Assembly: GCA_002212725.1 (NCBI GenBank)
Contig: MTCR01000108.1
Location: forward strand, 1-64,000
Direction of reading: 5' to 3'
Length of the DNA: 64,000 bases
Origin: Sphingobacteriales bacterium TSM_CSM
Lineage (GTDB): Bacteria; Bacteroidota; Bacteroidia; Chitinophagales; UBA2359
Below are positions 50,324-64,000 of this stretch, piece by piece. A program made the translations under genes and the position numbers. The first letter of the stretch is position 1, and every line of letters starts with the position of its first letter. Under the pieces are notes generated by a model. It did not search any database and was not told the origin of the DNA. It saw nothing but the letters and a program-made list of their open reading frames with translations.

Positions 50324-50331
50324 TATCTTTG
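50324..50331 (+). promoter_or_regulatory. -7 promoter element of the Roco gene
   Basis: TATCTTTG, a perfect TAnnTTTG match, 15 bases before the ATG at 50347. Its TTG has been read as an upstream start in frame, but a promoter reading is more likely. Confidence 0.6.
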
Positions 50332-50346
50332 CAACAACAGAAAACC

Positions 50347-52902
50347 ATGGAGAGCAATGCCAGTATAACAGCTTTGGAGCGAATTCGGGAAGCACAGTTT
50401 GCAGGAACGTCCGTTTTAGACCTCAGCAACCTGGATTTAACCTTCCTTCCCGAAGAAATTGTGCAATTAAAGCAACTCAAAGAATTATGCCTCCAAAACA
50501 ACCTGCTTTCTTCGTTGCCGGCAGAAATTGGCAACCTGCCCCAACTACGGGTCATTCATGCTTCGGGAAACCAGATTGCACAGGTGCATAAAGCCATCAA
50601 AAAGCTCAACCAACTTTCAGAACTGTTGCTCAATGATAACAAATTGAACAGCTTGCCCTACGAATTTGCACAACTTGGGCAGTTGCAAACCCTGAACCTG
50701 AACAACAATAATTTTACCGATGTGCCAAGGGCACTGAAACAACTGCCCCGCCTTAGCTGCCTGCACCTTTGCAACAACCGCCTGCAACGCCTGCCCGATA
50801 CCATTTCGCAAATGACCGAATTGGAAGAACTCTATATATCCGGCAATGAAATTGATAAACTGCCCGATACCATAGGACAACTTTCGCTGCTGCGCGTATT
50901 GCAGGTTAACCACAACGTTTTAACCATACTGCCGCCGGGCATAGGGCAACTTAGCCTGCTTACCGATTTAGATGCCTCGCACAACCTGCTGCATTCATTG
51001 CCATCGGAATTGGCACAGTTGCGCCAACTAAAACACCTCAACCTGTCAGACAACAGGCTTTCTAACATTCCATTGCAAATAAAAAACCTCACCCAATTGC
51101 AAAACCGTCCGGGGAAGCCCGGATTTAACCTTGCCAACAACCGGTTTAACGTGCCCGAAGAGCTGTTTGACCGCCGCCCCGGTGAAATTATACAATACCT
51201 GGCAGACCTGCAACTGTCAAAAAACAAAAAACCCCTGCACGAAGCCAAACTCATCTTCATCGGGTCGGGCGAAGTGGGTAAAACTTCGCTCATCAGCATG
51301 CTTACTACCGGAAGCTATAACCCTGCCGAACAAAAAACCGATGGCATTCAAATACAAGATTGGGAGGTTAAGCGCGGGAACGACCATATTAAACTGCATA
51401 TCTGGGATTTTGGCGGACAGGAAATTATGCACGCCACCCATAAATTTTTTATGACCGGACGAAGTGTTTATGTACTCGTTATCAGCCCCCGAACCGAAGA
51501 CCGCTATGGCGACTCAGAACTGGAGTACTGGCTCAAACTCATACGCTCTTTTGCCGGCATGGATGTGCCCATTGTTGTAGTCATAAACAAGTGCGAAACC
51601 CATAAATTAGACATTGCCAAAGGACATCTGCGCGATAAATACCCCAATATTGTTGAATTTGTGGAAACCTCCTGCAAAGACAACCTCAATATTGATAAAT
51701 TGGAAAACGCCATTACCGTCGCCATTTCAGAACTAACACATATTGACGACCTGCTGCCCAAAAGCTATTTTGAAATTAAACAGCAACTCGAAACCAGCAA
51801 CAAAGATTTTATTTCCTACCACGATTACCAGAAAATATGCCTGCAAATTGTGCCCGATTTTACAGAAGCCAGTATGCAAACACTGGTAAACCTGCTTCAC
51901 GACCTGGGCGTAATGCTTAACTTTAACGACGACCGAAAACTGAAAGACACCCATGTGCTAAACCCCGAATGGGTAACGCAGGGCGTTTACCAGATTATTA
52001 CCTCGCCCCGCCTCATCAGCAAAAAAGGCATCTTGTCTATAACCGAGGTAAAACAAATTCTGGACCCCAAAAACTACCCTACCGACAACGAACGGTTTTA
52101 TATTATGGATATGATGCAGCGTTTTGAACTCTGCTACCAGATTACCGAAACCGATAACAACTTTTTTATTCCGGGTGCTTTTCCGAAAGATAAACCCCAT
52201 TTTGAGTGGAACTATATGCCGGCCGACCTGCTGCGTTTTCAGTATAAGTACGACATTATGCCGGCAAGCATTATGGCACTGTTTATTGTAAAAGTGCATA
52301 ACTATATACGAAACAACGATTTTTGGCGAAACGGCGTGGTGCTGCGAAAAGACGGCTGCGAAGCGCTTATACAAGCCGACCCCCAAGATTGCAAAGTGTA
52401 TATTGAAGTAGGCGGAATGGGCAATATGCGCGAAATGCTGGCCTTTGTAAGAAGCCAGTTTGAAATATTGCACAGCCGTTTTAGCAACCTTACCATTAAA
52501 AAACTCATGGTCTATACCGAAAAAAACGAAACAGCACTCATAGATTTTGATGCGCTGCTTGTTTACGAACAACTTAGAGAAGAATACATGGTAGTGCCCG
52601 AACTGAAGAAAAAACTGTCGGTAAAAAAACTGCTCAGCGGCATAGAACCCGACTCGGCAAGCACACGCAACCAATACCTTGAGAAAGAGGGCATTAACCA
52701 ACGGCAGCGCCGCGAAGATGCCTTTGCAGATACCATAAACACAGGGCAAACCCGGGCAACACTGGCAAGCGGACTAAAAACCATGACCATTCTTAAAATT
52801 ATTGGCGCTACTTTGGCCGGAATTATTAGCCTTTTAGCCGGAATTGCCGAAATAACCGGAGAAAACCTCTTAAATTTGTGGCACATTATAAACGGCAAAT
52901 AA
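50347..52902 (+). CDS. Roco protein: LRR, Roc GTPase, COR domain, C-terminal membrane segment
   Basis: An 851-residue protein from ATG 50347. About ten leucine-rich repeats span residues 15-265 (units such as LPDTIGQLSLLRVLQVNHN). The Roc GTPase follows: P-loop FIGSGEVGKTSLI near 303, G3 DFGGQEIMHATHKFF near 350, G4 VINKCE near 412. A COR dimerisation domain spans about 470-735, and a hydrophobic segment (LKIIGATLAGIISLLAGIAEI) lies near the C-terminus. Roco proteins are GTP-dependent signalling ATPase-like switches; bacterial roles are poorly known, and several occur in defence-related loci. No clear partner gene is adjacent. Confidence 0.92.
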   Translation: MESNASITALERIREAQFAGTSVLDLSNLDLTFLPEEIVQLKQLKELCLQNNLLSSLPAEIGNLPQLRVIHASGNQIAQVHKAIKKLNQLSELLLNDNKLNSLPYEFAQLGQLQTLNLNNNNFTDVPRALKQLPRLSCLHLCNNRLQRLPDTISQMTELEELYISGNEIDKLPDTIGQLSLLRVLQVNHNVLTILPPGIGQLSLLTDLDASHNLLHSLPSELAQLRQLKHLNLSDNRLSNIPLQIKNLTQLQNRPGKPGFNLANNRFNVPEELFDRRPGEIIQYLADLQLSKNKKPLHEAKLIFIGSGEVGKTSLISMLTTGSYNPAEQKTDGIQIQDWEVKRGNDHIKLHIWDFGGQEIMHATHKFFMTGRSVYVLVISPRTEDRYGDSELEYWLKLIRSFAGMDVPIVVVINKCETHKLDIAKGHLRDKYPNIVEFVETSCKDNLNIDKLENAITVAISELTHIDDLLPKSYFEIKQQLETSNKDFISYHDYQKICLQIVPDFTEASMQTLVNLLHDLGVMLNFNDDRKLKDTHVLNPEWVTQGVYQIITSPRLISKKGILSITEVKQILDPKNYPTDNERFYIMDMMQRFELCYQITETDNNFFIPGAFPKDKPHFEWNYMPADLLRFQYKYDIMPASIMALFIVKVHNYIRNNDFWRNGVVLRKDGCEALIQADPQDCKVYIEVGGMGNMREMLAFVRSQFEILHSRFSNLTIKKLMVYTEKNETALIDFDALLVYEQLREEYMVVPELKKKLSVKKLLSGIEPDSASTRNQYLEKEGINQRQRREDAFADTINTGQTRATLASGLKTMTILKIIGATLAGIISLLAGIAEITGENLLNLWHIINGK

Positions 52903-55205: not shown

Positions 55206-55574
55206 CTACCGGGGGTACAACTCCGCAAAATGCCTGAACAACACAAACCGGAAGGAGGCAATTTTGGTGCCGTCGGGGTTGTCAATGGTATTGCGTTGTG
55301 TGGTGGAGGCCACACAAGAGATGCCAATTTGTTGCAACTTTGCCACTAAGCTAAAGCAGAAAGTTAGTTCACCCATGAGGTGAACAGCCAAAGGGTTTAA
55401 TTGCCTTATTTTTACAACATATTGTTCTGCTAATAATTCCACTTCATCGGTAGTCCAGGTAGGCGGTATCTGGGGAAAGGGCAGGTCTTCCACGCCGCCC
55501 CACCGGTTACAGGCGGCATTGGTTTGCTCTGCACTCCAATTGGCAGAGGGGTGGTTGGAAAGGTTGAGGAGCAT
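55206..55574 (-). CDS. small CRISPR-associated protein, candidate ring nuclease (Csx15/Csx20-like)
   Basis: A 122-residue protein from ATG 55572-55574 (MLLNLSNHPSANWS); ATG 55598 is an alternative. It begins with a hydrophobic strand and NHP, has VEDLPFPQIPP, then HLMGELTFCFSLVAKLQQIGISCVASTTQRN. The GEx(T)...V..L...G...ATT.R pattern resembles small accessory proteins of type III CRISPR loci such as Csx15 and Csx20, which have been linked to cyclic oligoadenylate breakdown. It is the last gene on the minus strand of this type III-B locus, 51 bases after the CARF-HEPN gene. Family membership is from recalled motifs, not a search. Confidence 0.6.
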   Translation of the reverse strand: MLLNLSNHPSANWSAEQTNAACNRWGGVEDLPFPQIPPTWTTDEVELLAEQYVVKIRQLNPLAVHLMGELTFCFSLVAKLQQIGISCVASTTQRNTIDNPDGTKIASFRFVLFRHFAELYPR

Positions 55575-55625
55575 GGGGGAATCTATTTTGTTATACAAAG
55601 TACAGTAATGGTGGTGGTAACGATA

Positions 55626-56897
55626 TTATTCTATTTGTAAAAATGCTTTTACCAGACTTAAACTATGCCGTAGTTTTGTCTCAAATGACCTATATCTGCG
55701 AGCATTTTTTTCAGTACCTGCGTGGTTGATATCGTTTCTATAATCCTTTAAGGCATTGTACGCAGGCTCTAACCCTATAAACGAAGGGTGTGTTTGTATG
55801 ATTTTAATTATGGCATGGTCAACATTTCGCCAATATTTTTCGGGCATATTTTTACAATTCATCGCATCGGCAATCAGCTTTCTATTGTCTTTAAACACCT
55901 GCTTATTGTAGCCTGTTTGGGTACAAATATAGCTGATAATGGTTTCCTGTAATAAGGTGATGCCTTGTTGAATAAGGTTGTGATTTAAGCACCATTCAGC
56001 TGCATAAAAACCGTTTACCACATCGGGCCGGGTAAATTTACCCAACTCCTGTTGCAACTTGCCCAATACGCGTTTCATGGCCTCGCTTTCTACCCGATTT
56101 TCAATATTTTTCAGTTCGGCAACCAAATCGCTGAACAGCCGGGCATTTTCTAACTCAGATCCTCTAACGGTAGAAAAAGCGCCTCCTATGTTTGATAAAA
56201 TAGCAGATAAGTTGCCAAACCCTTGTCTTTCCGATAATTTTGCAAGTTGCCGGGTGTTGCCGTGGTAAATGAAATCGTTAGCAGCTATTGTCCACTCCTG
56301 AAGCCTGACCATTTCGGTTAGGTAAAGAATAGGCGCTATGCGGTCTGCCGGATTAGGATACTGTTGTTGAATAGCAAAAGCAGAACCCAATGCCTCAAAA
56401 GCGCCATACATGACCGACTCAATAACCACATCATTCAACAAAAAAGAAGCATAATTTACCAATACCGAGCCAAACATGGGTATAGACCTGAACGCATTGG
56501 TAATATCTAAATGCACATGGTCGTTGTTGGTTAAAACATCGTAGATGTTACTGAAGATGAGTTGGTTGTCTTTATCGGTAAATCCTTCGGGAATAGTTTT
56601 ATCCACAACTTGGCAACCAAGGTTTAACTTTTGCAGTTTAGCCCGAAGTCCTTCTTGGTCAGCGGGGTCATCTTTGTAATTAGCCCCCTCCCAGTTAGTA
56701 ACCCTTGACCCTCTTTCGCCCTCAGTCATAAAAATATAAATGCAATCATGGGCGCTCCAATTGGCACACAAATTTTCGCAAATTGCTTCCTGCACAAACC
56801 GCACTACAGCAGACGTTTTATCGGGAAACCGATACCGGCAATTCAGGTATTTGTTATTGCCCAAAAAGGTGATGAGTACGTTTCGGTTTTGTTGCAT
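55626..56897 (-). CDS. csx2: Csx2/TIGR02221-type CARF-HEPN ribonuclease
   Basis: About 423 residues from ATG 56895-56897; a longer frame to 56939 runs further into the HicB-like gene. The N-terminus RNVLITFLGNNKYLNCRY and VHLDITNAFRSIPMFGS are typical of the TIGR02221 (Csx2) CARF domain, which binds cyclic oligoadenylates. The C-terminal HEPN domain carries the R-x4-H motif RNDINH (R387-H392 from the chosen start) for metal-independent RNA cleavage. Such proteins are ancillary effectors activated by Cmr2/Cas10 products. Base composition is host-like, unlike the cmr core. Confidence 0.88.
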   Translation of the reverse strand: MQQNRNVLITFLGNNKYLNCRYRFPDKTSAVVRFVQEAICENLCANWSAHDCIYIFMTEGERGSRVTNWEGANYKDDPADQEGLRAKLQKLNLGCQVVDKTIPEGFTDKDNQLIFSNIYDVLTNNDHVHLDITNAFRSIPMFGSVLVNYASFLLNDVVIESVMYGAFEALGSAFAIQQQYPNPADRIAPILYLTEMVRLQEWTIAANDFIYHGNTRQLAKLSERQGFGNLSAILSNIGGAFSTVRGSELENARLFSDLVAELKNIENRVESEAMKRVLGKLQQELGKFTRPDVVNGFYAAEWCLNHNLIQQGITLLQETIISYICTQTGYNKQVFKDNRKLIADAMNCKNMPEKYWRNVDHAIIKIIQTHPSFIGLEPAYNALKDYRNDINHAGTEKNARRYRSFETKLRHSLSLVKAFLQIE

Positions 56898-57063
56898 TGT
56901 AGGAGTAGCGTATCCATTCAGCGATAATCTGCTCGGCATTTTCCAAGGCTTCAGAGTATGTTTTTCCGTCTGACATGCAGTCTGCTAATTCAGGCACTTC
57001 CGCAATATACGACAGGTCGTTTTCGCTCCAGTAAATAATGATTTCGTATTTAAAAGGTGCCAT
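56854..57063 (-). CDS. HicB-like antitoxin family protein
   Basis: A 69-residue protein with the HicB fold: KYEIIIYWSENDLSYIAEVPELADC then SDGKTYSEALENAEQIIAEWI (compare fvaevPelpGc and GdTpeEAl in HicB). It lacks a C-terminal DNA-binding domain, and no hicA gene is found on either side. Its last 44 bases overlap the csx2 coding sequence in another frame, so the two may be translationally coupled. It could be an orphan antitoxin or a regulator recruited into the CRISPR locus. Confidence 0.8.
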   Translation of the reverse strand: MAPFKYEIIIYWSENDLSYIAEVPELADCMSDGKTYSEALENAEQIIAEWIRYSYNATKPKRTHHLFGQ

Positions 57064-57178: not shown

Positions 57179-57769
57179 TTATAGCTTTATATTTCCGTTT
57201 TCATCTAATAAATCGGGGTTAATCCAGCCGCCGTTGGGCTGTAACCCTTTTTTCCAATGCTCCTCCTGTTCCGGTGTCATTTGCACAGGTTTTTTTTCCC
57301 ATTCCTCCACTAAATCTTTGCAGGTACAATACTCCAAACCCCATGGACATTGTTCCGGTTCATAATGGCAAAACTCTAAGTGCAAATGCCCTACCGATGT
57401 ATAGCTTACAGGGTGTTCTCTCCAGTAGTTGCGAAATGCGCGGTACAATAATTTAGCGGGCACATTGTCCGGAAAATCGGCAAGTATATTAAATGCCTGC
57501 CAGAGGTTCAGAATGGCATGGCAAAGGCTTTCGGCTTGTTTGTTGGTTAGCAGCTCAACGGGCGGCAGCGCATCGGGCGATATGCCAAACAGTTCTTCCA
57601 TTGGTTGTTCATCGCCCATTTCCCACTCTATAATGTAGTCTAAGCCTCCTTTGTATTTAGGATCTGCGGCGGGGTGGTTTGGGTACAGCAAGGCATAATC
57701 TTTTGGCGGAGGCAGGTTGTTTTGCGCGGTTTTAAGGTCTTGGAGGAGCTGGGTGATGTAGGTTTGCAT
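57179..57769 (-). CDS. uncharacterised protein with Cys-rich C-terminal motif
   Basis: A 196-residue soluble protein I do not recognise. N-terminal helix MQTYITQLLQDLKTA, a middle part with PVELLTNKQAESLCHAILNLWQAF and PAKLLYRAFRNYW, and a C-terminal motif LEFCHYEPEQCPWGLEYCTC (C-x7-C-x6-C-x-C) that may bind metal. Proteins with a similar E-FC...C....YC-C ending occur widely in Bacteroidota, so the gene may be a passenger here. It lies ten bases downstream of cmr6 on the same strand, so it is probably in the cmr transcript. Confidence 0.7.
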   Translation of the reverse strand: MQTYITQLLQDLKTAQNNLPPPKDYALLYPNHPAADPKYKGGLDYIIEWEMGDEQPMEELFGISPDALPPVELLTNKQAESLCHAILNLWQAFNILADFPDNVPAKLLYRAFRNYWREHPVSYTSVGHLHLEFCHYEPEQCPWGLEYCTCKDLVEEWEKKPVQMTPEQEEHWKKGLQPNGGWINPDLLDENGNIKL

Positions 57770-57779
57770 GTTGCCGGTA

Positions 57780-58670
57780 TTAGGGTTCTTTCATGTATCC
57801 GTAGCCTACGGCGGTTTTTGCGCCGATGCCTTTATTGGTTAGAGCAGTTTCAAGCCAAGATTTAGCTTTGTCCAGTAATTGTTCATCGGCATATTTTTTT
57901 ATACCTATATAGAAAGTAAAAGCCACATCTTTTAAAGTTAAGAAAAGCACGGGATTGGGAGATAGCCAATCTGCGGGAGCTTTTCCCTCTGTGTAGTAGT
58001 CCTGATAATGATTATTCATTATGTCAGGTTGTACTGAGTTATTTGCTAACGCTTGGGGAAATGCATCAAAAAAAATGATTTTACCCTCATTTTTTTCCGT
58101 GCCAAAAATATCGTTGTAATCTTTCTTCGTTACTTTATCATCACCCAATTTTTCATTTTCATTTTCATCTTTAAGCATGTCTTGTGCGTAATGATTTGTA
58201 ATACCTTTTATGCTACTTGCCGGCAAATACGGAAAACCATAGACGTGGTGCAATGTAATGCCATTTTCAAAAACTGATGCATTGCCAATACCAATAGCTA
58301 AACGCCAATCGGTTGTTAATGGTATTGCTTCGTGTTTAGAGCACAAACCCTCTACGGATAATTCGGTTTGAATTTGACAATATTCTAAGTCAACTTTGTT
58401 AAATTGATGAATGGTGACATCTAAATACCATTCTTGCTCACTGAACTTCTTTCCAGTTTTATACTTTTTGACATAGAATGCTGGCTTAATCGCCTTCTTG
58501 CCATTTATTAAAATAGAAAGATCATCAGAATCTTCAAACCTGTCTTTATTGAAAAAATTTGCACACTTAAATAGTTTCAAAGAGAAGTTGTCTACTTGCC
58601 TCAAATTAAGCAATTGGCGCACATTTTCTGGAAGTGCTGTGTTTTTTATATTGAACAGGTTATTCATCAT
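57780..58670 (-). CDS. cmr6: Cmr6, type III-B RAMP protein
   Basis: About 296 residues from ATG 58668-58670 (or 58667); a longer frame to 58715 lies inside cmr5. RAMP features are LAIGIGNASVFENGITLHHVYG-region, with the substrate/backbone loop FPYLPASSIKGITNHYA and the C-terminal glycine-rich GIGAKTAVGYGYM. Cmr6 sits with Cmr1 at the 3' end of the crRNA in the Cmr complex. The start overlaps the end of cmr5 by 11 bases. Clearly A+T-rich. Confidence 0.9.
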   Translation of the reverse strand: MMNNLFNIKNTALPENVRQLLNLRQVDNFSLKLFKCANFFNKDRFEDSDDLSILINGKKAIKPAFYVKKYKTGKKFSEQEWYLDVTIHQFNKVDLEYCQIQTELSVEGLCSKHEAIPLTTDWRLAIGIGNASVFENGITLHHVYGFPYLPASSIKGITNHYAQDMLKDENENEKLGDDKVTKKDYNDIFGTEKNEGKIIFFDAFPQALANNSVQPDIMNNHYQDYYTEGKAPADWLSPNPVLFLTLKDVAFTFYIGIKKYADEQLLDKAKSWLETALTNKGIGAKTAVGYGYMKEP

Positions 58671-59133
58671 CACCTCCTTCTTCCTCTGTGGTATTTTTTT
58701 CGGGTTCGTCATCAATTAGTCCATCGGCAAAGCGTTTTAGCCAAGATAGCAAACTTAGTACCTTTTTAGTAAGTGCGCGATATTCTTGTGAATTTTGGGC
58801 AATGATATGTTTAGCTAAATCGGTACTGCCTATATCATCTTGCAAATACTCACTAATTTGTTGATAAATAAGGTCATAGGCATTTTTAGGCTTATTGCTT
58901 GCTGCTTTTTTAGAGAGTATAAAAGCAAAGGTAACCCCCAAGCCATTGTTTTGAATCATGGCAGGCAATTTTTTGACATAAGATTTATACTTTTCATCTT
59001 TATACTCTTCCGACCCTACCTGTGCCGTTTTTTTTGCTTTTGCAGCATCATAGATTTCTTTACCCTGCTCTGCAAATTTAAAAGCTTTTACAGCTATTTC
59101 GTTTTCAATATGTTTGATATGTGTCATGGTCAA
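58660..59133 (-). CDS. cmr5: Cmr5, type III-B small subunit
   Basis: A 157-residue, mostly helical protein (IENEIAVKAFKFAEQ, VKKLPAMIQNNGLGVTFAFILSKK, YDLIYQQISEYLQDD) ending in a strongly acidic tail. The motif KLPAMIQNNGLG is characteristic of Cmr5. It lines the crRNA-target duplex as the belly subunit. It lies between cmr4 (32-base gap) and cmr6 (overlapping). Confidence 0.9.
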   Translation of the reverse strand: MTMTHIKHIENEIAVKAFKFAEQGKEIYDAAKAKKTAQVGSEEYKDEKYKSYVKKLPAMIQNNGLGVTFAFILSKKAASNKPKNAYDLIYQQISEYLQDDIGSTDLAKHIIAQNSQEYRALTKKVLSLLSWLKRFADGLIDDEPEKNTTEEEGGDDE

Positions 59134-59165: not shown

Positions 59166-60212
59166 TTAGTTGATTTTCACAATGCCTTTGCCTAGTGTTG
59201 TATTACTACCTATTTGCAAGATGTTATTAGCTTTTGTTAAGCCATTCACAAAAAACTCCATAACATCAGTCTCTGTTTTAAACTCTTTTTCAGTTCCATT
59301 TTCTTCGGAAGTTTTAAATTTAACCGTTTTTTCCTGAAATACTGGACTTGCCAACACCAAACAGTATAAGATGGTTTCGGAAGGCAAATATTCTTCGGTA
59401 AATAAAGCACCGCCTTTAACCACTCCTGTACTATTTTCTATTTTTATACGTGTGATAACCTCAGTAGAAAGTTCTACAAAATCGCGAAAATCATCATCGT
59501 GCAGTATGACAAGATGGTTGCTTATCTCTAAACCTGATAAGTTTTTGATACTTTCTGATATTTTAGCTAAATTGGGGTTGTCTTCACTACTTTTAACATC
59601 AAAAGCGTATTCTTCTAAAACGATGCTTGATTTAGCGCCTTTTGTAATGCATTTACCCTCAACTGAATAACATTCGCCGCTTTTTAAATTCATTTTTTGC
59701 ACTTCAGAATCAAGACTGGTTAAAGCTCCTTGCATAGCAGCTTCTAAGGTGCTTAGTTCTAGTTCGGCAACAAATTTTTCGAGTATACCCACACTTGTTA
59801 CCAAAGCATAAACACCTTTCATGCTTTTGATAGGAAAAAACAATAAGCGAGCATCGGTAAAACCTAATGCACCAGAGTATTCTTTGGCGAATGGTTTTAT
59901 TTCCTCATCAATACCTTCGTTATTTTTTCTTTTTTCAACTTTATCGAACTTATCTTTAACAGTATCTTCTTCGCCTTGTGGGTCATAACCAAACGTAAGA
60001 TGTATTTTCACCCTGTCATTAACAGATGTAGAAGGATATATATCCTCAAACCGCTGGCGCAAAGCTCCTTTTAGTGAAGATGCTTCGAATTTGGGGTAAT
60101 TGCTATGCCCTTCACGCTGTATGGGCAAATCTACTATGCCTAAATCACTTCCACTCCCTACATGTGTAGGAGTGAGGCATTGAATAAAAAGAGGTTTTGC
60201 TATTTTGAACAT
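59166..60212 (-). CDS. cmr4: Cmr4, type III-B backbone and target-RNA nuclease
   Basis: A 348-residue RAMP protein. Family landmarks are FIQCLTPTHVGSGSDLGIVDLPIQRE with the following PKFEASSLKGALRQRF loop, and the catalytic-thumb region with aspartates around residue 30. GALGFTDARLLFFPIKSMKGVYALVTS is the conserved central block. Cmr4 repeats along the crRNA and cuts target RNA at six-base intervals. It follows the CARF-nuclease gene by 52 bases. Confidence 0.93.
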   Translation of the reverse strand: MFKIAKPLFIQCLTPTHVGSGSDLGIVDLPIQREGHSNYPKFEASSLKGALRQRFEDIYPSTSVNDRVKIHLTFGYDPQGEEDTVKDKFDKVEKRKNNEGIDEEIKPFAKEYSGALGFTDARLLFFPIKSMKGVYALVTSVGILEKFVAELELSTLEAAMQGALTSLDSEVQKMNLKSGECYSVEGKCITKGAKSSIVLEEYAFDVKSSEDNPNLAKISESIKNLSGLEISNHLVILHDDDFRDFVELSTEVITRIKIENSTGVVKGGALFTEEYLPSETILYCLVLASPVFQEKTVKFKTSEENGTEKEFKTETDVMEFFVNGLTKANNILQIGSNTTLGKGIVKIN

Positions 60213-60264: not shown

Positions 60265-61893
60265 TTAGGTTTGATGAGATGGAAAAGTCAAATCTTCCCA
60301 ATCCCAATCTTTCCAGTTTTCGCCATTGTAAAAATTAGTAAAATTAAGTTTACCTGTTGTAGTATCAAAATTAATAGGAATCTTAATGCTAACAGCCCTA
60401 AATTTTGTTTTTCGTTTAAAACTAAGCGAATTAATTTTGTGCAAATGGGTAATTATCTTATCTAGATGTGGACTAGAAAACTTTTTGTCATGGGTAATGT
60501 TTTTTAGCGTAAACTTAAAAACAATAAAGAGTAGTTCTATTTCCTCATTGTCTTTTAAAATTTCTTCTAGTGCTTTTGCTCTTGCTATTTGCTGATGTAG
60601 ATAATCCTTATTTCCCCCAATTTCTTTTTGATAATCACATGCAGCGTTAAATGCCTTAGATTCGCCCCACACATACACGATATTTTTATCTCCTGCTTTC
60701 TTTATCACCTTTTCATCTTCTGCCCTCTTTATCAAAGGGATATCCATATCGCCAATTTCTGTTTGTTTAGTTCCCTTGTCAGTTAATTCCACTTCCTTTG
60801 TACTATTGAGTTTAAAAAAATGATGTTTTAGCTGAAGCGGTTTGGTAGTTTCATAATCTTTTACTAACAAGGGTTTTTGGAGATAAATATCAAAGTATTT
60901 ATATAGAATGTGCTCCATAATAAAACCACTATTGCCATCTACTGGAATATTTGCAATAATTTTTGCAAAAGCACTTTCTTTGAGTTCAGTTTTTTTCCAA
61001 GTTACTAAGTTATAATCAATTAGTAGCTTTAATACTTGATGTAATTCGACAGGCTTTTTTTTGACCTCCTCATTGCAGTTTTGAGATAGTATGTAACGTT
61101 GTTTATCATTATCAAATTGTGCGTTATTCTCAAAAACCTCCAATGCAATATCTTGAAGGTTTTCTTTAAGGAAATAATTTTTCCAACAAGGTTTTAGGGC
61201 TTCTACTATATCCCAGTCTAGGTTAATGGGCAAATTACCCACAGTAATCAAGTCGTTGCTATCTTCGTAGATGTACTTAAGTTGCAAGCCTTTTATTTGC
61301 CCAATAATGGTCATAAAAGGAATAAGGGCTTTATAGCCACCTGTAATGTTGAGGATAGTATTATCTTTCGCGTTTTTGTTGACGTATTCAGTTTGTTCGT
61401 TGAGGGCTGTTGTTTGAAAATCGCTGCCGCTGTTTATGGTTAGACCCTCAATGCGCTTCAAATGAACGTGGTTATATCCTTGTCGCCTAAGTTCTTTTTC
61501 CAAAATCCACCCGCATAAATGTCCATCAAAAGTGGATGTTGTTAGTAGATGAATAGTTACCTTAGCTTTATCAGTAGAGCCTACTATTTGCTTAATAGAT
61601 TTAAGCTCGGCTGATGTATCATCTCCTTTTTTCCCTATCCATGTACTTATTTTATTGACAAAAGATTCTGTTTTTGCTTGCTGGCGTTGAATTGCCAGCC
61701 AAGTAGTTTCATTGAACGCTTTTCGACCATTATTCTTTTCAGGTTCATTTTTTTTGTCATTATATTTACACCAAACCAACTCTTTATCCCAAAATTTCTG
61801 AAACTCGGAATCTACAGCATCTTGTATATAGTTAGTAAACAAAGATGTCCCAACTGTTGATATAATAATCATCGGTTTTTCAGTATTAGTCAT
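60265..61893 (-). CDS. CARF domain fused to PD-(D/E)xK-type nuclease
   Basis: A 542-residue protein. The N-terminal CARF domain (about 1-230) has IISTVGTSLFTN (10-21) and LNITGGYKALIPFMT (181-195), the ligand-site signatures of the APE2256 (Cas_APE2256) CARF type. The C-terminal part has a layout of a PD-(D/E)xK nuclease: GFIMEHILYKYF with Glu327, EIGDMDIPLI with Asp384, and VWGESKAF with Glu411-x-Lys413. The ATG overlaps the cmr3 stop by eight bases (ATGACTAA), so the pair is translationally coupled. It probably cuts DNA or RNA on binding cyclic oligoadenylate, like Card1/Can2, but the APE2256-type CARF makes it a different arrangement. Nuclease assignment is by eye. Confidence 0.8.
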   Translation of the reverse strand: MTNTEKPMIIISTVGTSLFTNYIQDAVDSEFQKFWDKELVWCKYNDKKNEPEKNNGRKAFNETTWLAIQRQQAKTESFVNKISTWIGKKGDDTSAELKSIKQIVGSTDKAKVTIHLLTTSTFDGHLCGWILEKELRRQGYNHVHLKRIEGLTINSGSDFQTTALNEQTEYVNKNAKDNTILNITGGYKALIPFMTIIGQIKGLQLKYIYEDSNDLITVGNLPINLDWDIVEALKPCWKNYFLKENLQDIALEVFENNAQFDNDKQRYILSQNCNEEVKKKPVELHQVLKLLIDYNLVTWKKTELKESAFAKIIANIPVDGNSGFIMEHILYKYFDIYLQKPLLVKDYETTKPLQLKHHFFKLNSTKEVELTDKGTKQTEIGDMDIPLIKRAEDEKVIKKAGDKNIVYVWGESKAFNAACDYQKEIGGNKDYLHQQIARAKALEEILKDNEEIELLFIVFKFTLKNITHDKKFSSPHLDKIITHLHKINSLSFKRKTKFRAVSIKIPINFDTTTGKLNFTNFYNGENWKDWDWEDLTFPSHQT

Positions 61894-63094
61894 TAGTATT
61901 AAAATTGGGATTTAAATTGCCCATGTAAGCAATGCCAAATCCTTGTTTTTTAAAATTAGGATCTCTACACAAGCTTTTTTGATGAAAATTGATGAGCAGT
62001 TTGGATTTATCTGAATTGTTAATTAGTTTGAAATAGTAAACACTGCCTGCAGGTATTGCCCGATACATAGTTTTAGGTTTTTTAGTGGCTAAATCGAAAC
62101 CGCCTATAGATATTGGTTTTCCTACAAAGGCTGTTATCAATTGCATTTCGATTCCTTTCCATACGGCAATACGTGTAACAGCATCATAACTATCAAAATC
62201 AGGTAGCCATCCTTCATTTTTTATAGTGGTATTTGGCACAAAAACACAAGGCGTGGCAAAGTAGATTTTAAAGTACACATCATCATTTTCCTCTACTAAT
62301 GGTGTTTTGATGTCTATTGACAATAAGGGTTTTTCATTTTGTTCTTCTCCTCCCTGTTTCAGAGGAAGCGTTTTAGCTGTTTCATCAGTACAGACTACAG
62401 TTTTGCCTTCTGCCCCTAATCGTAGCCATTTTGAAGCAGGAAAAAAATTAGTTACTAACAAAAACGAAAAGCGTTGGTTTTCTTTTTCTAAACGTGACAT
62501 ATTAACACGATATAAATGCCCTTCTTCGGTGCTTTGCCGTTCATTATTTAATGCGTTACCAATTTTTGATTCGGTATTTATTAGGTTGTCTGTAATAGAA
62601 AATGCCACTTTATCAAGTTGTAAATAGTTGTTCAACTCCTCAATACTTAAGTAACCTTCGGGTTGTTCTAACTGTTCCTCATCGTCACAATGATCAGCTA
62701 TTGAATTCACTTGGACATTAGATAATACTACTTTACATAACTTTTCAGCAGCAAAACTTAGTCTATCTTTTCTTCCTTCTTTATAGTGTACCAAATCTAA
62801 TGGAATTGGCAATAAAGGAGTTAGGTTGCTTGCTTCATTTTTATTGTACAGTCTATTATCGTTTTCTTCTTTTAGGTAATAAATACCCGTAATTTCGATG
62901 CTCGCGGTCTCTGTTGATGCATTAGATAACAGATGTAAATTGTCTGCCAAAAAAGCACTACACAATGCTCCGTGAAATACAGATGGCGGTGGAGGAAATA
63001 TACCCGTTGCAAAGGTATCGTCACCCATCGAAAATGGCTTACCATCTCTAAAAAAAAGAGTATCTACTGCTTGAAGTTTTAATAAGTAGGTCAT
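61886..63094 (-). CDS. cmr3: Cmr3, type III-B crRNA 5'-handle binding RAMP
   Basis: A 402-residue protein beginning YLLKLQAVDTLFFRDGKPFSMGDDTFATGIFPPPPSVFHGAL-type sequence (residues 3-44), diagnostic for Cmr3. A glycine-rich region near the C-terminus (KPISIGGFDLATKKPKTMYRAIPAGSVYYF segment) is also typical. Cmr3 caps the 5' tag of the crRNA together with Cmr2. Its ATG overlaps the cmr2 stop (ATGA at 63091-63094). Confidence 0.92.
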   Translation of the reverse strand: MTYLLKLQAVDTLFFRDGKPFSMGDDTFATGIFPPPPSVFHGALCSAFLADNLHLLSNASTETASIEITGIYYLKEENDNRLYNKNEASNLTPLLPIPLDLVHYKEGRKDRLSFAAEKLCKVVLSNVQVNSIADHCDDEEQLEQPEGYLSIEELNNYLQLDKVAFSITDNLINTESKIGNALNNERQSTEEGHLYRVNMSRLEKENQRFSFLLVTNFFPASKWLRLGAEGKTVVCTDETAKTLPLKQGGEEQNEKPLLSIDIKTPLVEENDDVYFKIYFATPCVFVPNTTIKNEGWLPDFDSYDAVTRIAVWKGIEMQLITAFVGKPISIGGFDLATKKPKTMYRAIPAGSVYYFKLINNSDKSKLLINFHQKSLCRDPNFKKQGFGIAYMGNLNPNFNTND

Positions 63095-64000
63095 AATATA
63101 TCGGCGGTTTCTAATTGTTCTGAAAATTTTAGTTCGCGAGCCATAAAGTCCACGATAAAAAGCAATTGTAATAGGTTATTTAAGTTTCCACTAAGTTCAA
63201 AAAGCCTATAAAATTGTTCTGCTAAATTAATAACTACCGATTTTGCAATTTTATCTGATTTTGCCCTCAACATTAACCGTTTTAATTCAGTTTCAATAAT
63301 CGGGTTAAAGTTGTACGATGCTGTACCTTCCAGTAACCTACTCATCTCCATGCCCAAAACTCTAAAAAATTTAGAAGATAGTTGGTCGTTGAGGCGATAT
63401 TGTAGTAGTTGATTGACTATGGTGGTGACATAACCCAATTCGTTGTACTGCCATTTGAAATAGGTTTGGTGATTTTCGCCCGAATGTTTGGAGGCTATAA
63501 TACAAAAAGCATTACGGTCGCCTTTATTTTCGTCTTTGGCTGCTTTTTCGGCTTCGCGTGCTTTGGATAACACCAAGTTGAGCGGTTCTTTGTAGTGTGC
63601 AATGGCTATGCCCGCCGAAAAACTAAAATTATAGTCTTCGCCGTCATTTCCCAACAGGTATTGTTCTTGTAGCTTTTTGTTCACTCTGCAATCAAAATTG
63701 CGGTGTAGGTCTTCCATTACCTCAAACAAATAACGCAAATTAACAAAACCCAGAAAGTCATCGCCACCAGCATATACTGCTTTTCCTTTGGGAGCAAGCA
63801 AGTATTTTGTGCTCGCCCATTTTGCAAACTCGCGCAATAGCTGCGAAAGTCGATTTTGGAATTTTTGTAAATCTACACTTTCTCTATTTTTTAGTAATTT
63901 GCCTGATAACATTTTACCCATGTGGTCGCCATCAAAATGTATAATAGCATAGTATTTGCCAAATTTGATGTTTGTAGGTTTTATTGCATTGATTAAAGCA
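63091..64000 (-). CDS. cmr2: Cmr2/Cas10, C-terminal part (continues past window edge)
   Basis: The frame stays open to base 64000 on the minus strand, so only the last 303 or so residues are in the window. The edge-near part reads YYAIIHFDGDHMGKML (63922-63970 region), the Palm1 Asp motif of Cas10, and further on AVYAGGDDFLGF is the GGDD cyclase motif that makes cyclic oligoadenylates from ATP. SFSAGIAIAHYKEPL and AREAEKAAKD are other Cas10 Palm blocks. The N-terminal HD nuclease domain, if present, lies outside. An ATG at 63919-63921 is internal, not the true start. Confidence 0.93.
   Translation of the reverse strand, partial: ALINAIKPTNIKFGKYYAIIHFDGDHMGKMLSGKLLKNRESVDLQKFQNRLSQLLREFAKWASTKYLLAPKGKAVYAGGDDFLGFVNLRYLFEVMEDLHRNFDCRVNKKLQEQYLLGNDGEDYNFSFSAGIAIAHYKEPLNLVLSKAREAEKAAKDENKGDRNAFCIIASKHSGENHQTYFKWQYNELGYVTTIVNQLLQYRLNDQLSSKFFRVLGMEMSRLLEGTASYNFNPIIETELKRLMLRAKSDKIAKSVVINLAEQFYRLFELSGNLNNLLQLLFIVDFMARELKFSEQLETADIL

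Follow-up and report, generated by a model that had tools for sequence, protein, structure and literature searches.

A CARF7 sensor fused to a predicted PD-(D/E)xK nuclease occupies a fixed slot between cmr3 and cmr4 of type III-B CRISPR operons

A gene embedded in the cmr core of a type III-B CRISPR operon from a Bacteroidota assembly encodes a CARF7 sensor, a winged-helix-like linker and a C-terminal domain with the conserved residues and fold of a PD-(D/E)xK nuclease. The protein is probably a cyclic-oligoadenylate-activated nuclease of the III-B system, and relatives with the same C-terminal domain (hereafter PD-type) share its place in the operon. The window, that is, the whole stretch of DNA that we analysed, covers positions 1–64,000 of a contig that is 96 kb long.

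The effector gene lies within a complete III-B operon

The operon is complete and runs on the minus strand in the order cmr1–cas10–cmr3–effector–cmr4–cmr5–cmr6–196-aa gene–csx1–csx20. Its features in the window, and the domains of the effector, are as follows:

63091–64000, minus strand: cas10/cmr2, 3′ part (GGDD present; no N-terminal HD domain)
61886–63094, minus strand: cmr3, directly upstream of the effector gene (TIGR01888, PF09700)
60265–61893, minus strand: CARF7–winged helix–PD-(D/E)xK effector gene (542 aa from M1; 535 aa if the start is M8)
61219–61893, minus strand: CARF (APE2256/CARF7) sensor, effector residues 1–225 (PF09651, PADLOC CARF7, fold matches)
60946–61161, minus strand: winged-helix-like linker domain, residues 245–316 (AlphaFold secondary structure; Sis0811, SSO1393 and Cami1 alignments)
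60268–60930, minus strand: predicted PD-(D/E)xK nuclease domain, residues 322–542 (invariant residues, AlphaFold, fold neighbours, Cdn1 match)
59166–60212, minus strand: cmr4, 52 nt downstream of the effector gene (TIGR02580, 2e-57)
58660–59133, minus strand: cmr5 (TIGR01881)
57780–58715, minus strand: cmr6 (TIGR01898)
55626–56939, minus strand: Csx1-type CARF2–HEPN RNase at the operon edge (PADLOC CARF2--CARF_HEPN, 3e-84)
55206–55598, minus strand: Csx20, ring nuclease family (PADLOC Csx20, 4e-39)

The whole cas10 gene spans contig positions 63091–64956 (621 aa; locus L013), and cmr1 lies beyond the window at 64961–66115. Cas10 has an intact GGDD cyclase motif and, because the 621-aa protein starts at the palm-type region, no HD nuclease domain. 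Csx1 keeps the HEPN motif R-x4-H (RNDINH at residue 401). The 196-aa gene between cmr6 and csx1 (57179–57769) matches no family; its only second copy is at the end of contig L032, likewise behind cmr6. The CRISPR operon ends about 2.3 kb from an 857-aa LRR-Roc-COR (ROCO) GTPase gene (50329–52902).

The same genome holds a second III-B locus (L016), with a PD-type protein that is 22% identical to the effector and occupies the same cmr3/cmr4 slot. Bacteroidetes bacterium UBA2322 (L103) carries an almost identical copy of this second PD-type CARF7 gene (L016:8060–9493, contig C58). A single cas1 gene, accompanied by a Cas2-like ORF, is present on another contig (C119) of the assembly, which is 88% complete and has no match to PF10040 (Cas6). 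The sequence that we read flanking the two III-B loci and on the cas1 contig contains no CRISPR array.

The original prediction placed the effector gene between cmr3 and cmr4 and coupled it to cmr3 by an overlap. The placement is borne out, the ORF at 60265–61893 being flanked by the TIGR01888 gene (107 bits, cut-off 100.4) and the TIGR02580 gene. The overlap, an 8-nt ATGACTAA through which M1 shares bases with the cmr3 stop codon, can be read in the sequence but exists only if translation begins at M1. The usual N terminus of the relatives, M-x-x-I-T-T-V-G-T-S, in which T-V-G-T-S typically follows the start by 4–6 residues, aligns with M8 (ATG at 61872), and a start there leaves a 13-nt gap to cmr3. 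M8 thus appears to fit the relatives better than M1, and the ATGACTAA overlap is uncertain.

Tight coupling to cmr3 is a feature of the family, because longest-ORF calls put every one of 41 distinct PD-type relatives within 25 nt of cmr3 and 23 in overlap with it, the overlap being 4 nt in 16; ten of the overlapping genes could not accommodate a later start. The effector may, as originally proposed, be produced in near-stoichiometric amounts with the Cmr complex, although coupling alone would not set the ratio of effector to complex because Cmr4 and Cmr5 are present in multiple copies.

The sensor is of the CARF7 clade

The N-terminal domain is an APE2256-type CARF domain, in agreement with the original reading, which mentioned neither the winged helix that separates this domain from the C-terminal one nor the lack of an HD domain in Cas10. 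PF09651 matches residues 93–218 (1e-21, 77.7 bits; cut-off 24.8), TIGR02619 scores 43.9 bits (cut-off 37.45), and PADLOC models of the CARF7 clade cover residues 9–270. In fold comparisons using the full-length AlphaFold model (pLDDT 73, pTM 0.71), the CARF domain and winged-helix linker match Sis0811 (Z 21), SSO1393 (Z 20–21) and Cami1 (Z 20), with structural alignments reaching residue 320 or so; Csa3 is also among the fold matches.

Sis0811, a ring nuclease, and SSO1393, both of the APE2256 family, provide the best structural match but lack a nuclease domain. S17 and G185-G186-Y187-K188 are invariant among 36 sequences, and S17 and K188, kept in 36/36, align with Sis0811 S12 and K169, residues that we took from the mutants in PDB titles (7pq6, 7pqa). 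This invariance suggests that the effector CARF domain may have intrinsic ring-nuclease activity. It would also suit a protein that is itself a ring nuclease, with the extra domain merely assisting messenger degradation, as would the identity of the nearest CARF structures. However, such an enzyme would have no need of 300 additional residues that carry an invariant nuclease site, and Cami1, which has intrinsic ring-nuclease activity, shows that effector and ring-nuclease activities can coexist (PMC12830947). We therefore regard a function confined to messenger degradation as very unlikely.

The C-terminal domain has the features of a PD-(D/E)xK nuclease

Across 35 C-termini with a mean identity of 18%, E327, D384, E411 and K413 are the sole invariant columns, and the same holds for the columns of alignments A3 and A4. 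In an independent alignment of 42 proteins with long C-termini, E327 is kept in 41/42, D384 in 40/42, and E411 and K413 each in 41/41. These residues had been named from the one sequence; all four stand at the numbers then assigned to them, and the conservation of E, D and ExK extends to at least 40 of the 42 homologues.

The predicted structure likewise bears out a nuclease fold rather than a winged helix only. AlphaFold models contain the alpha-beta-beta-beta-alpha-beta core of PD-(D/E)xK enzymes and place the four residues where this fold requires them: E327 belongs to the first helix, and D384 and E411-x-K413 lie on core strands. The domain of the window protein carries long low-confidence insertions at 338–379 and 394–402; that of a compact relative (L049) is modelled with a pLDDT of 92.9. 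The fold neighbours of the L049 domain are mostly PD-(D/E)xK proteins (XisH, AF1548, BstEII, McrC, EndoMS, Can2, FokI, Cdn1 and Card1), and its best structural neighbour is SfsA with a modest Z of 8.3. Foldseek alone finds no match to the nuclease domain below E 1e-3 in the PDB. Given this non-significant search and the modest Z score, we base the fold call on the motif, the topology and the composition of the neighbour list taken together.

Profile comparisons point the same way. Among PDB sequences, a full-length profile (A2) matches Cdn1 in its nuclease part (1.5e-4), whereas profile A3 has no match there, and HHalign relates the PD domain to Card1-type nucleases at 3.5e-4, as against 0.5–0.6 for two RelE-type controls. 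Searches of isolated C-termini against Pfam, NCBIfam and PADLOC yield no library model for the PD domain; one C-terminus (L019) reached the PADLOC model CARF4--CARF_PDDEXK at 1.4e-4, and another (L020) aligned, with gaps, to the generic CARF_RelE model (2e-11). Sequence conservation and structural models thus support assignment of the effector C-terminus as a PD-(D/E)xK nuclease, with the four residues as its predicted active site.

A predicted winged helix next to a CARF domain, and the presence of Csa3 among the fold matches, could instead indicate a DNA-binding regulator controlled by cyclic oligoadenylate (cOA), in the manner of Csa3, with a vestigial nuclease domain. However, the four predicted catalytic residues are conserved more strongly than anything else in the C-terminus, and a domain that had lost its function would not have retained them across at least ten phyla, making a chiefly regulatory role extremely improbable.

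The effector is distinct from Cami1 and from Card1-type nucleases

The best PADLOC matches of the effector are to CARF7--CARF_RelE models (8e-45), and its CARF part resembles Cami1 in both sequence and fold. Cami1 of A. vinosum (CARF7–RelE; PDB 8phb, 8phj) has the CARF clade, the winged-helix linker and the III-B association in common with the effector, which could accordingly be viewed as a divergent Cami1, that is, a CARF–RelE ribosome-dependent mRNase. The match nevertheless stops at residue 270, and no PADLOC model matches the C-terminus by itself, which largely refutes a Cami1/RelE identity. Used as a control, A. vinosum Cami1 itself fails the PD profile (E 0.5) and matches a short RelE-type profile at 6e-6, and HHalign between the two C-terminal classes gives E 0.59. 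We consequently give almost no credence to a divergent Cami1. The two proteins differ in their C-termini, a ribosome-targeting RelE RNase in Cami1 and a predicted PD-(D/E)xK nuclease here, and in gene position: the Cami1 genes of A. vinosum and A. tepidum precede cmr1 at the operon edge, whereas the effector gene lies between cmr3 and cmr4.

The CARF4–PD-(D/E)xK proteins Can2, Card1 and Cdn1 share with the effector a CARF sensor followed by a C-terminal PD-(D/E)xK domain; their D and ExK residues align with those of the effector, and the nuclease domains are remote homologues. Card1 (372 aa; 6wxw) is shorter than the 542-aa effector, and the operon slot differs too. The Card1 endonuclease family PF09002 has no match in the effector or its genome, and matches in seven other genomes of the phylum; the CARF4-type Card1 sensor model (PF23400) scores 15.6 bits against the effector, below its cut-off of 24.6. 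The original contrast with the smaller Card1/Can2 proteins is thus upheld in that the effector falls outside their Pfam family, but remote homology of the nuclease domains means that the difference is not categorical.

The operon slot is fixed in the PD-type family

Searching 84,980 species genomes for sensor motifs, we obtained 80 CARF7 loci, which together with a phylum sample gave 41 distinct PD-type proteins; gene position was not a search criterion. PD-type proteins are found in Bacteroidota, Bacillota, Planctomycetota, Ignavibacteriota, Thermodesulfobacteriota, Thermotogota, Caldisericota, Cloacimonadota, Campylobacterota, Aquificota and CSSED10-310. All 41 genes come directly after cmr3, and for 38 of them cmr4 is the first cas gene recognised further along; in the other three, the contig holds no such gene or it is a cmr1 1.8 kb away. 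The original prediction had most CARF effectors at the locus edge, a generalisation that does not hold for this family, in which the embedded position is the norm and no peculiarity of one locus.

Short RelE-type CARF7 proteins occupy the cmr3/cmr4 slot in 24/38 cases, the remainder lying elsewhere. A tree of the CARF domain alone, built with a quick method, has five switches of C-terminal class, of which three or more fall on well-supported branches; the place of the window protein is unsure owing to its long branch. The shared slot and these changes of class indicate that the effector domain has been exchanged on one sensor, usually in the same slot. Such a slot could exist because the effector docks on the Cmr complex, near Cmr3 or Cmr4, and would cut locally at the transcribed target, with RelE and PD-(D/E)xK warheads exchanged on a docked CARF7 sensor; we consider this proposal improbable.

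Four CARF7 proteins of odd length (L034:11481–12299, L040:13122–15062, L104:7379–9340 and L105:575–2914) have C-termini that the PD and RelE-type profiles both fail to match, and are possible further warheads. Phage records and viral contigs yielded no relatives. Eight relatives are on plasmids, one of them a confirmed PD-type member in Runella sp. SP2 (plasmid pSP2_2, L117:7992–9362). It sits in the same slot, has its frame broken by a TAA in the CARF part and is annotated by NCBI as two hypothetical proteins; the surrounding operon is otherwise like that of the window, with a TM1812-type Csx1 and a small Csx20-like gene.

A proposed DNase acting in trans

Binding of target RNA by the Cmr complex would cause Cas10, which has GGDD and no HD domain, to make cOA. 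The messenger is most likely cA4, by analogy with Cami1, whose signal is cA4 (PMC11229360), with Sis0811 and with the Csx20 family, which is a cA4-specific ring nuclease family (PMC12409355). The cOA would bind a dimer of the CARF7 sensor and the winged-helix part would relay the change, allowing the PD-(D/E)xK domain (E327, D384, E411 and K413 plus metal) to cut nucleic acid. The signal would be switched off by Csx20, and perhaps also by the CARF domain of the effector itself.

The substrate would most likely be DNA, through nicking or cleavage of double- or single-stranded DNA, and perhaps RNA, as in Can2/Card1. Because Cas10 has no HD domain, the effector would be the DNase of the operon in trans, beside the Csx1 RNase. 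That the domain cuts mainly RNA, or single strands only, is a possibility to which we attach a lower but appreciable weight: Can2/Card1, with a nuclease domain of the same superfamily, cut ssRNA as well as DNA (PMC9704534), and Cdn1 is described as a ribonuclease (PMC12825302). Against an RNA substrate, the locus already contains the HEPN RNase Csx1, so a second RNase would add less than a DNase, which is a weak argument.

All Cas10 neighbours of PD-type genes have GGDD, and 33 of 34 lack a long N-terminus; long Cas10 proteins accompany 1/34 PD-type and 6/27 RelE-type genes (Fisher p 0.04). We rejected a tie between the PD type and HD-less Cas10, as the tree offers two independent pairs and no signal is left once relatedness is considered.

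Discussion

The combination of a CARF7 sensor with a PD-(D/E)xK domain appears to be a new pairing of known parts: CARF7 with RelE is Cami1, and CARF4 with PD-(D/E)xK was already known, the domain being named with Crf4 in PMC12669027. PADLOC-DB and NCBIfam as scanned contain no CARF7 plus PD-(D/E)xK model, and the 2020 CARF classification or the 2025 supplement may list the combination without experiment. A literature search on CARF7 returned HIV papers only. A slot inside the cmr core is not by itself new, because the csx1 gene of P. furiosus (PF1127) presumably sits in the same place, between cmr3 and cmr4; its product is a CARF–HEPN RNase, whereas the window effector has a PD-(D/E)xK domain. 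What the present comparison adds is the strictness of the slot in the PD-type CARF7 family.

Inventories of type III effectors depend on profile names, and PADLOC returns CARF–RelE for these proteins and NCBIfam and Pfam the CARF domain alone. A family of predicted DNases that spans ten or more phyla would therefore be counted as translation inhibitors or as hypothetical proteins. One sensor carrying either warhead at one point of the III-B operon offers a natural comparison between mRNA cleavage and DNA cleavage, and the fixed slot makes it testable whether operon position serves expression control or contact with the complex.
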